DNA from: Microcaldota archaeon
GTDB taxonomy: Archaea; Micrarchaeota; Micrarchaeia; Micrarchaeales; Micrarchaeaceae
Length of the DNA stretch: 60,836 bases
Assembly (NCBI GenBank): GCA_021799475.1
Contig: JAJZAJ010000003.1
Coordinates: 1-60,836, forward strand
Direction of reading: 5' to 3'
Shown here: positions 1-6,040 of the stretch, piece after piece
Position numbering within the stretch: the stretch's first letter is position 1
Layout: every line of letters begins with the position of its first letter
Translations under genes and position numbers: made by a program
The notes under the pieces: generated by a model
What the model saw: the letters and a program-made list of their open reading frames with translations, nothing else
Told to the model about the DNA's origin: nothing
Databases searched by the model: none

Positions 1-330
1 CTTCGAGATTCTCTTCGCTGTGGCTGATTATTGGAGGACACTTCAGTATCAGTTCTATGAACCTTTTCTTGTCTAGTTCAAGGTACTTCCTCCTTTCTTC
101 GAGATTCTCTTCACTGTGGCTGACTATTGGAGGGAACTTGAGTATCAGTTCTATGAATTTCTTCTTGTCTAGTTCAAGATACTTCCTCTTTCCTTCGAGA
201 TTCTCTTCACTGTAGCAGACTATTTGAGGGAACTTGAGTATCAGTTCTATGAATTTCTTCTTGTCTAGTTCAAGATACTTCCTCTTTCCTTCGAGATTCT
301 CTTCACTGTAGCAGACTATTTGAGGAAACT
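1..330. repeat. 96-bp in-phase tandem repeat, about 3.4 copies
   Basis: The string CTTCGAGATTCTCTTC recurs at 1, 97, 193 and 289, an exact 96-bp spacing (32 codons). The units at 97, 193 and 289 differ at only a few bases and the unit at 1 at a few more. The copies stay in frame inside the minus-strand gene, so this is coding repeat expansion and not a CRISPR array. The near-identity suggests recent duplication or gene conversion. The repeat may extend left of the window. Confidence 0.95.
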
Positions 331-586
331 CATTTATCAATTTGATTATTTTACTTATGTCAAGATATTCAGATAGGTATAAAATGAACCTTGAAACAGT
401 CTGTGCTGTAGGTCTCGCTTTTTTAAGCCTGACTTTATCGACCCCTAGGCCAACGAGCAGTTCCCTTGCCGCTGCATATCTAGGTTCATCACTATCAGTT
501 GAATTTTCATCTATTTGCTTCGCTAAACCCAATACGGCATCCTGGTCGATTTGATCAATGTTTAATGCGGCTGTAAGCTGCTGCAA
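1..586 (-). CDS. mTERF-like 32-residue repeat protein (partial, runs off the left edge)
   Basis: This open frame runs leftward without a stop from a TGA at 608-610 to base 1 and continues outside the window. No ATG is present. A TTG at 586-584, preceded by AGAGGT, is the most plausible start. About 90 N-terminal residues are non-repetitive, followed by one divergent unit and then at least three near-identical 32-residue units. Each unit has a pattern like KYLELDKKKF, IELILKFPQIV, YSEENLEGKR: two helices with a conserved Pro and a Ser-Glu-Glu-Asn-Leu tail. That spacing and the hydrophobic-Phe-Pro-x-hydrophobic core match the mTERF motif of mitochondrial and plastid nucleic-acid-binding proteins. 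The repeat pattern is seen directly; the family name is recognised by eye. A nucleic-acid-binding role is inferred. A generic helical repeat protein is the alternative. Confidence 0.7.
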   Translation of the reverse strand, partial: MQQLTAALNIDQIDQDAVLGLAKQIDENSTDSDEPRYAAARELLVGLGVDKVRLKKARPTAQTVSRFILYLSEYLDISKIIKLINEFPQIVCYSEENLEGKRKYLELDKKKFIELILKFPQIVCYSEENLEGKRKYLELDKKKFIELILKFPPIVSHSEENLEERRKYLELDKKRFIELILKCPPIISHSEENLE

Positions 587-635
587 TAAAACCTCTGTTT
601 CCGTGATTCAATCACTGTAATGACAGAGTTCTACC

Positions 636-665
636 AGATATTTAAGCCTGCCGAAAGGCGGCAGG
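636..665 (-). promoter_or_regulatory. Promoter of the mTERF-like gene with an upstream hairpin
   Basis: On the minus strand, TTAAATATCTGG (around 644-633) resembles an archaeal TATA box about 25 bases before the coding region. Immediately upstream, 647-653 (CCTGCCG) and 659-665 (CGGCAGG) form a perfect 7-bp stem with a 5-base loop. The same AAATATCTGG string occurs twice upstream of the 896-residue gene, around 32847-32857 and 32938-32948. The hairpin could be an operator or the end of an upstream transcript. Confidence 0.5.
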
Positions 666-3494: not shown

Positions 3495-5372
3495 ATGGAA
3501 GAATCGCCTTTTGGCTATGTTATGAATCTGATTGCGGAGTGCGTAGCGCGGGCGGTGCCCGGACAGTCTGCAAAAGATGTCTCTAGTACTGTCGAGATAT
3601 CGCGCGGCATAGGTGACATAAGCTGTTCCATAGCATTCAGGCTTTCCAAACAGCTCAAGGCAAACCCCGTAAAGATTGCTGAAGAAATAGCTGGTAAATT
3701 TGAGAAAATAGATTATGTATCGAAGATAACCGCAGACGGAGGATACCTGAACTTCCATCTAGACAGACCTGCATTCTCGAGCTTTGCCATAAGGTTCGCG
3801 GACAGCATACCGGATGCAGGTCCAATATCGGATATCGGAAATAGGAAGAGAGTGATAATAGAATACCCTAGCGTGAATCCTAACAAGCCATGGCATGTTG
3901 GCCATCTGAGAAATGCGATTTTGGGGGATTCGATAGCAAATCTTTATGAGGCATGCGGGTACCTCCCGGAAAGGGAGGACTATATAGATGATCTTGGCAT
4001 GCAGGTAACAGAAAGCCTATGGGGCTATATGCACCTGGGAGACAAGCCCGAAGGGAAATTCGATACCTGGTTAGGCACTGAATACGTAAAGGTGCACATG
4101 AAAATCGAGCAGGATAAGGATGAGATGCGCAAGGAGATATCTTCCCTTATGAAGCTGATCGAGCAGGATGGTACTTATGAATCAAAGATAGCCAGGGAGA
4201 TATCAGAGGCCTGCGTGCTTGCACAGTACGTTACCGCCTTTAATTATAATATTTACCATGACGTGCTAATATGGGAGAGCGACATCCTTGCAAACAGGTT
4301 ACTAGATAGGTCGCTTGTGATGCTTGAGCAGCACAATGTGGCGACGAAGCCGAAGGACGGGGAATATAAGGGATGCACCGTAATAGACCTGCAGCATGTA
4401 AAAGAGCTGCCGAAGGAGCTGCAGGGACTCAAGGAAACTATCAAGGTGCTCATCAGGAGCGACGGCACTCCTACCTATGTTGCAAAAGACATAGCATTCC
4501 ACATGTGGAAGTTCGGACTTCTTGAAGATACGTTCACGTATTACACTTTTGTTGATAAACAACCGAATGGGAAACCGCTGCACAGCACCGGCAATAAGGG
4601 GGAAAAGATACCATTCGGACATGTCGACAGGGCGATAAACATAATAGACGTCAAGCAGAGCTTTGAGCAATCCATTCTGAAGCTCGCTTTCTCGCTTATG
4701 GGCAAAAATGAGGTAGCAGAAAATATAATCCACATGCCGTACGGAAGGGTAGAAATAGAAGGGGCAAGCCTTTCTGGAAGACTGGGCACATGGGAGGGAT
4801 ATACCGCAGACTTGCTCTTGGAGGAAGCGAAGGCAAAGGCAGCAATGCTCATAGGTTCGCGCTTCCGGATAGACGAGAATGAGAAGCAGAGGATAGCGGG
4901 AGCGGTGTCGCTGTCTGCAATAAGATTCGAATTCCTAAAGTTCTCTCCGGAAAAACAGATACTATTTTCATGGAACAGGGCACTCAATTTTGAGGGCAAT
5001 TCTGGCCCGTACTGCCAGTACATGTACGCGCGCGCGAAGCGCCTAATAAGCGATTCCGGAATAAAAGACGTTAACCATCTTTCTATAGACTATACTATCC
5101 TCTCGGATGAAAAAGAGTTTGAGCTCATTAAGATAATCGCACGGCTCAGGGACACTGTTGAAAAGGCTTGTGTGGAGATGCGCCCGAATGCTCTTGCGGA
5201 ATACGCCATAGAGCTCGCACTGTCGTTCAGCAGTTTCTATGAATCCTCCCCGATACTTAAGGGCTCAAAAGAAAAGGAGAAGCTGGCGAGACTGGCCCTT
5301 GTGGCCGCATTTGCGATAGTGATGAGGAAGGCGCTTATGCTGCTCGGTATACAGGTAGTCGACAGGATGTAA
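3495..5372 (+). CDS. argS: Arginyl-tRNA synthetase (625 aa)
   Basis: This class I synthetase charges tRNA-Arg. An N-terminal Add-1-like domain is followed by the HIGH-equivalent HVGH near residue 133 in NPNKPWHVGHLRNAILGD, then YIDDLGMQ. The region where KMSKS would sit reads ASLSGRLGTWEG near 424, a degenerate form common in ArgRS. The C-terminus is a helical DALR anticodon-binding domain with NSGPYCQYMYAR at about 513. An upstream in-frame ATG at 3420 overlaps nnrD and would add a hydrophobic, Cys-rich stretch, so ATG at 3495 is chosen. Confidence 0.95.
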   Translation: MEESPFGYVMNLIAECVARAVPGQSAKDVSSTVEISRGIGDISCSIAFRLSKQLKANPVKIAEEIAGKFEKIDYVSKITADGGYLNFHLDRPAFSSFAIRFADSIPDAGPISDIGNRKRVIIEYPSVNPNKPWHVGHLRNAILGDSIANLYEACGYLPEREDYIDDLGMQVTESLWGYMHLGDKPEGKFDTWLGTEYVKVHMKIEQDKDEMRKEISSLMKLIEQDGTYESKIAREISEACVLAQYVTAFNYNIYHDVLIWESDILANRLLDRSLVMLEQHNVATKPKDGEYKGCTVIDLQHVKELPKELQGLKETIKVLIRSDGTPTYVAKDIAFHMWKFGLLEDTFTYYTFVDKQPNGKPLHSTGNKGEKIPFGHVDRAINIIDVKQSFEQSILKLAFSLMGKNEVAENIIHMPYGRVEIEGASLSGRLGTWEGYTADLLLEEAKAKAAMLIGSRFRIDENEKQRIAGAVSLSAIRFEFLKFSPEKQILFSWNRALNFEGNSGPYCQYMYARAKRLISDSGIKDVNHLSIDYTILSDEKEFELIKIIARLRDTVEKACVEMRPNALAEYAIELALSFSSFYESSPILKGSKEKEKLARLALVAAFAIVMRKALMLLGIQVVDRM

Positions 5373-5420
5373 AGCAAAACTGATATATATTAATGCTTGA
5401 GCATATGAATTGCACTGAGT

Positions 5421-5492
5421 GGCCTCGGTAGTGTAATGGCGGCACGGAAGGCTGTGGACCTTCAAGACCGGGTCCGATTCCCGGCTGAGGCC
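5421..5492 (+). tRNA. tRNA-His (GTG)
   Basis: The acceptor arms 5422-5428 (GCCTCGG) and 5485-5491 (CTGAGGC) pair. The anticodon stem GAAGG/CCTTC encloses the loop CTGTGGA, giving anticodon GTG. The extra G at 5421 opposite C at 5492 is the histidine-specific G-1:C73 pair and is encoded in the DNA here. A TATA-like GATATATATTAA lies about 35 bases upstream and a T-run follows the 3' end. Confidence 0.95.
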
Positions 5493-5542
5493 TTTTAGAA
5501 AAGCAGCATCATTTGGAATGCGGACTGCAGGATCGGCTGTCA

Positions 5543-6040
5543 TCAGAGCTCTTTACGCTTTAGGAGATCAGCAGCAGAACGGGACTTTATATCTGACAGT
5601 CTTTCTTTCAACAGCTTTTCGTAAGAGTTCTTAACCGCGAGAGCTATATCTTCACCAACAATGCTTTTAGGATCAAGCTTATGTGATAGGAAGAACAGCG
5701 CCTGGCTTCGTGCGGCCTGGTTGGAAGCAAACCTATCAGCAGTATTCACCCCAAATTTTGTGATGCGCCATTGCTTTCCGAGAGCGTTATTTCTCAGCAA
5801 CCTCTGTTGCCTGTCAGCTGCCTCGATTAATTCGAAATCCTCAAAGTTCCTCAGTATGGCGCTCAGGTACACGCCTTTTATGCCTGTTGAGATATTAAGC
5901 GCCTCGGTGGTTATCTTGATTCTTTCATCATGCAGTCTCCTTAGTGTCATCAGGATTGCACCCTCACAAGCTCCAAGTCCCATGACGCTGTTTCCCACCT
6001 CCACATAAAGATATCTTTTGTTCTGCTGCATACGATCCAT
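5543..6040 (-). CDS. Hypothetical winged-helix-like protein (165 aa)
   Basis: I do not recognise the family. Residues about 22-85 read like a winged-helix domain: helices around EGAILMTLRRL, a turn, a helix around GVYLSAILRNFEDFELIEA, then a wing ending in WRITKFGVNTADRF, which resembles the end of PadR/MarR-type wings. The C-terminal 60 residues are charged and helical. It is transcribed away from the 6148 gene, sharing a 107-base divergent spacer with TATA-like motifs. A transcriptional regulator is the likely role, by inference only. Confidence 0.65.
   Translation of the reverse strand: MDRMQQNKRYLYVEVGNSVMGLGACEGAILMTLRRLHDERIKITTEALNISTGIKGVYLSAILRNFEDFELIEAADRQQRLLRNNALGKQWRITKFGVNTADRFASNQAARSQALFFLSHKLDPKSIVGEDIALAVKNSYEKLLKERLSDIKSRSAADLLKRKEL

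Follow-up and report, generated by a model that had tools for sequence, protein, structure and literature searches.

A tandem-repeat member of the mTERF family encoded by an archaeon

The window analysed here, a stretch of 60,836 bases, is the entire contig C2 of an 814-kb archaeal genome assembled in three contigs. At its left edge lies a minus-strand frame that starts with TTG at position 586 and remains open to position 2, where the contig ends; it encodes 195 aa. A Shine-Dalgarno-like AGAGG (592-596, minus strand) is located 5 nt upstream of the start codon, and further upstream is a TATA-box-like CTTAAATAT (638-646, minus strand), which recurs upstream of a second copy of the gene (copy B) and for which a promoter role is inferred. 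Residues 1-85 (332-586, minus strand) form an N-terminal helical domain common to the archaeal relatives of the protein (alignment A1); its helices span residues 2-8, 15-28, 35-46 and 61-72 in the AlphaFold2 model, and no Pfam family matched this domain in a Pfam scan. The remainder is repetitive: Tandem Repeats Finder reports a 96-bp array at positions 1-330 (3.4 copies, 93% matches, 0% indels, score 534), the units of which translate as 32-aa tandem units. Three of these are complete, namely unit 1 (EFPQIVCYSEENLEGKRKYLELDKKKFIELIL; 236-331), unit 2 (KFPQIVCYS...; 140-235) and unit 3 (KFPPIVSHS...; 44-139), while only the first 14 residues of unit 4 (KCPPIISHSEENLE; 2-43) precede the contig edge, all on the minus strand. 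The 32-residue units with Phe-Pro-x-hydrophobic and S-E-E-N-L spacing described in the initial annotation are indeed present in this frame. The neighbouring genes, also on the minus strand, encode a membrane protein without a Pfam family (764-1312) and a protein with a weak AbrB/MazE-type N-terminus (1575-2489).

When the window is reverse-complemented, its last 127 bases (window positions 1-127) coincide base for base with the start of contig C1 (k-mer overlap); exact overlaps of this kind are left where a repeat interrupts an assembly graph, and here it was the array that broke the assembly. Joining C2 to C1, where the rest of the gene lies (L001:128-726, plus strand), yields a 394-aa protein composed of the N-terminal domain, seven units (the last one partial) and a C-terminal cap; the full gene was thus recovered from the neighbouring contig, where the initial annotation had placed it. 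In the related genome G020, the same 127-bp overlap joins both ends of a single contig within its own mTERF gene. The join is independently supported by synteny in sister genomes, for which the block containing the AbrB/MazE-type gene was used. The membrane-protein gene abuts a YGR210-type GTPase gene in G007 and G002, with no mTERF gene between them, and is separated from it by one other gene in G013, G009 and G003; in the joined C2-C1 sequence, the interval between the same two neighbours holds the mTERF gene plus one further gene. An assembly artefact can be ruled out, as copy B lies complete in the interior of a 315-kb contig (L002) and the join of the copy described above (copy A) rests on both overlap and synteny. 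Eukaryotic contamination is likewise ruled out, since the neighbouring genes are archaeal and other Micrarchaeota genomes hold relatives. A few kb downstream of copy A, overlapping small genes (L061, 4212-4843; G000:C1) were found which, by eye, resemble an antitoxin and a PIN-domain toxin.

Affiliation of the protein with the mTERF family, proposed by eye in the initial annotation, was borne out by profile and fold comparisons. The part encoded in the window matches PF02536 with 45.5 bits (E = 6.4e-12) and the joined 394-aa protein with 92.3 bits (E = 3.6e-26), both highly significant and far above the cut-off of 23.1. Repetition is known to inflate profile scores, and a spurious match to PF20882 (Sos7) also reaches its cut-off here. 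This doubt is removed by less repetitive archaeal relatives, which score 68 bits (MAG FK3.bin85) to 135 bits (a 620-aa protein in G265, MAG TL2-1.bin31), and by the fold comparison. Conversely, an HMM built from five archaeal proteins retrieved from the PDB 13 mTERF chains, including MTERF3 (E 5e-11), MTERF4 and MTERF1, and one chance match at E = 0.64; the MTERF4 alignment runs through the C-terminal segment. Every one of the 12 complete units in copies A and B carries proline at unit position 3; in the partial unit that closes copy B, Ser stands there instead. A C-terminal segment (SYSLxxRIxPRxxY ... FLxRL) is present as well, reading FSYSLNQRIIPRYEYM...FLARL in the relative from G197 and, outside the window, a diverged LSCSFYTRILLRVKYA...FLKML in copy A.

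The AlphaFold2 model of the window part (pLDDT 88.4, pTM 0.81) folds each unit into two helices and a short third one (pattern 109-118, 120-124, 127-136). In a Foldseek search against the PDB, the best 18 matches were all mTERF (MTERF1, MTERF3, MTERF4 and mitoribosomal chains; 3m66 at E 1.5e-4, 3mva at TM 0.64), and the next structural class appeared only at E 0.77 or worse. Among the mitoribosomal chains we count the Tetrahymena and Polytomella ribosome entries, which we take to be mTERF chains, the match table naming them only as mitoribosomes. The structure thus predicted is the three-helix mTERF motif and not a Sel1, ARM or leucine-rich repeat solenoid, the outcomes that would have refuted the initial annotation. 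Weak additional support comes from the 620-aa relative, whose model is of low confidence (pLDDT 63.5) and whose top 13 fold matches are only mTERF; the long superhelix has been modelled solely at this low confidence. Taken together, the PF02536 scores, the mTERF chains found with the archaeal profile and the matching fold place the encoded protein firmly in the mTERF family, as an archaeal member. The protein does not qualify as an organelle-targeted eukaryotic protein, as it is encoded on an archaeal chromosome among conserved archaeal neighbours. This does not exclude mTERF membership, because an organellar location only reflects where the family has been described so far and is no structural criterion.

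The host is archaeal: each of the three organisms that the family search named is a Candidatus Micrarchaeota MAG, and one of them (G020) comes from the family to which the window's genome belongs. Among 301 Micrarchaeota genomes, 24 have PF02536 matches above the cut-off, as do 1 of about 94 other archaeal genomes that were sampled as relatives and 3 of 156 genomes of the second archaeal phylum to which that one belongs; none were found in 34 genomes of a third archaeal phylum or in 14 control genomes, which are not a survey of Bacteria. The absences are partly assembly losses. In G002, from the window's genus, the C-terminal segment alone (95.5% identical) stands at a contig end, accompanied by a decayed N-terminal copy, and a further mTERF fragment stands at a contig end in G265. 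Carriage by a virus or plasmid is ruled out: searches of viral contigs, phages and plasmids yielded no match to the mTERF genes, and a fold comparison gave no significant viral match. The 620-aa relative keeps the 32-aa register over 13 diverged units, and the protein from G197, a genome from a different family of the order, has the same architecture as copies A and B. The G197 gene (L044, G197:C4; minus strand, array at 4523-5608) comprises the N-terminal domain, seven units and a cap with canonical SYSLNQRIIPRYEY; an in-frame TAG in its unit 2 may reflect a recent pseudogene, a sequencing error or readthrough. A peptidase-like neighbour is common to G230 and G197, being near but not adjacent to the gene in the latter.

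The genome holds at least two copies of the gene. Copy B, intact and also 394 aa long (C1:80.6-81.7 kb), shares 91.5% nucleotide identity with copy A in the coding region, as well as about 104 bp of upstream and 72 bp of downstream sequence. A stretch upstream of and extending into copy B matches the upstream sequence of copy A at 98% over 84 bases and is also found at a copy in G002. The dN/dS values between the copies are about 0.46 in the N-terminal domain, 0.14 in the repeats and 0.27 in the cap; the reading frame is intact and evolves under purifying selection. In most cases, the unit of copy B nearest to a given unit of copy A does not have the same rank in the array, and synonymous divergence reaches 0.47 in the repeats vs 0.05 in the cap, from which we conclude that the repeat arrays have been reshuffled faster than their flanks. 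The upstream palindrome GTGATTGAATCAC, found together with its flank only before the two mTERF copies, was considered as a candidate for a dedicated operator or an RNA switch and rejected, its predicted RNA fold being no better than that of shuffled sequences (z -0.76). Since, in addition, a promoter-like stretch 78% identical to the mTERF upstream sequence lies ahead of a gene encoding another, unrelated solenoid-like repeat protein (G013:C8, L114, 78948-79001), GTGATTGAATCAC is probably ordinary promoter sequence of the genus.

The units are nearly identical in protein sequence, their codons differing silently, and what variation exists is unevenly placed. Across the 12 complete units of the two copies, 11 of the 32 positions carry amino-acid changes, and 8 of these 11 fall within unit positions 1-9 (hypergeometric p = 1.3e-4). 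Variation is largest at positions 2 (F/Y/C), 4 (P/Q), 7 (G/S/C/N) and 8 (Y/H/L), while positions 10-14, 17-25 and 27-32 show no amino-acid change at all and several silent ones; position 12 is an invariant Asn. A minimal-change count gives 12 non-silent and 6 silent changes in positions 1-9 vs 4 and 11 elsewhere (Fisher p = 0.025), a value that is indicative only, the units being related and non-independent. Positions 2, 4 and 8 vary again in the G197 array, and positions 2, 4, 7 and 8 in the core units of G020, in both cases among others.

The structure of MTERF1 bound to DNA offers a possible interpretation of this pattern. The conserved motif prolines of MTERF1 line the DNA major groove, and R162, R202, R251, R350 and R387 read bases directly (PMC4705650). 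With the MTERF1 residue numbers anchored on the substitutions present in PDB entries 5crj and 5crk, and with R162 and P277 as a check, we found that R162, R202, R251 and R350 map to unit positions 1, 4, 12 and 4, respectively (the proline being position 3), with R387 beyond the aligned stretch, and that F243 and F322, which are substituted in MTERF1-DNA structures, map to positions 4 and 7. The archaeal variation is accordingly situated in the loop that, in MTERF1, is turned towards DNA; this location suggests, without proving, unit-wise recognition. We favour, with a probability of about 0.72 and in the absence of binding, expression or phenotype data, the reading that the archaeal mTERF is a superhelix of seven motifs held between the N-terminal domain and the C-terminal segment and acts as a modular nucleic-acid binder. 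The superhelix would wrap nucleic acid in the way MTERF1 wraps DNA, with the loop around the proline of each motif running along the major groove or along an RNA strand. By inference, such a sequence-selective binder could block or pause RNA polymerase or stabilise a transcript, and altered loop residues might alter the target, which would make recognition modular.

A more specific version, which we advance only tentatively and consider doubtful at present, is that the mTERF fold here supports a natural modular system of recognition, in which positions 2, 4, 7 and 8 would set the nucleotide preference of each unit and targets would be re-programmed by shuffling of units between copies. Such a system would be analogous, though unrelated, to TALEs and PPRs. 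TALEs, too, consist of near-identical tandem repeats in which variation is limited to a few residues per unit, their cipher positions being 12/13 vs positions 2, 4, 7 and 8 in the archaeal units. The likeness to TAL effectors and TALE-likes (PF03377) is no more than an analogy: a Pfam scan of the joined 394-aa protein gave no match to PF03377, and the TALE dHax3 appeared at chance level (E 2.3) in the fold search of the window model. A TALE-like code is possible but unproven. Several features count against the favoured reading of a nucleic-acid binder: the units are no more than weakly basic (7 K/R vs 6 D/E in unit 2), MTERF1 reads bases with arginines, whereas archaeal positions 4, 7 and 8 offer P/Q, G/S/C/N and Y/H/L, and the position 12 from which R251 reads a base is occupied by the invariant Asn.

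The mTERF fold by itself does not imply DNA binding, because MTERF4 acts in a complex of protein and rRNA. The superhelix could be real and yet serve as an MTERF4-like scaffold that binds protein or the ribosome, in rRNA processing or ribosome assembly, the loop variation reflecting no sequence code and only relaxed constraint on exposed residues. We regard this as unlikely, even though it is MTERF4, a component of mitoribosome assembly complexes, that the archaeal profile matches through the C-terminal segment, and the variable residues are a limited set that is not arginine-rich. Exposure alone fails to explain the sites of variation, because other charged, solvent-type positions (E10, E11, N12, E14, K18, E21, D23, K24 and K25) are invariant in the protein, some of them despite silent codon changes, and the patchy presence of the gene (24/301 genomes) would be odd for a ribosome factor.

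It is less probable still that the gene is a fast-turnover accessory element, cassette-like or phase-variable, which expands its repeats and has little conserved function beyond being copied. The flanking sequence shared by the two copies, the decayed copy in G002, the contig-end fragment in G265 and the occupation of copy A's spot by other genes or none in sister genomes would fit such a history. However, dN/dS stays below 1 in the N-terminal domain, repeats and cap, the 32-aa register is fixed across the 13 diverged units of the 620-aa relative, the architecture recurs in a different family of the order (G197), and viral contigs, phages and plasmids yielded zero matches. Finally, a convergent alpha-solenoid (ARM, Sel1, TALE or designed-like) unrelated to mTERF is scarcely credible, since the inflation of profile scores by low-complexity-like repetition, exemplified by PF20882, cannot account for the 68-135 bits of diverged relatives, for a profile match that includes the MTERF4 C-terminal segment, or for a fold search with mTERF first and the next class at E 0.77 or worse.

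As an mTERF and putative modular binder, the archaeal protein shares with the members of PF02536 (MTERF1, MTERF3, MTERF4 and plant mTERFs) the Pro-capped central helix, the short third helix, the superhelical fold and the C-terminal segment. It differs from eukaryotic mTERFs, whose motifs are described as degenerate (PMC4005652), by its strict 32-aa register and units almost identical within one protein, by an N-terminal domain found in archaeal relatives only, and by 7 to about 13 repeats in reshuffled order. A review labels the mTERF family eukaryotic, and our literature search found no description of an archaeal mTERF; an mTERF outside eukaryotes, with homogeneous units, appears to be new. 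That mTERFs occur in two archaeal phyla, Micrarchaeota and one other, raises anew the question of the fold's origin. The near-identical units also constitute a clean natural experiment on unit-by-unit sequence reading, which is hard to address with degenerate eukaryotic repeats; if such reading were confirmed, they would provide a new programmable nucleic-acid-binding scaffold.

Other arrays related to PF02536 were encountered as well. Micrarchaeotal arrays of the GLSEEKIATYAQLLGRDPETIQRNY type are also tandem and match PF02536 (e.g. with 61.7 bits), but have a period of 31 and not 32 aa and lack the FP-x-hydrophobic step, and form a separate group; they were seen at L007, L023, L026, L030, L033, L035 and L090, both within the phylum and outside it (G503). 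One gene of this 31-aa type (L057, G213:C5) adjoins the same AbrB-like/hydratase/ArgS block as copy A does in the window. A third kind of mTERF-like array, with the unit ...hPxFAGhDHxKxL..., is present at L019, L024, L027, L031 and L036, with a period of 33 in L019, L027 and L031. In G326, from another archaeal phylum, a protein with a 39-aa period and 67% self-identity (L088, 4292-5071) includes a PF02536 match of 34.1 bits, and a further mTERF match of 78.8 bits lies on a different contig of the same genome.
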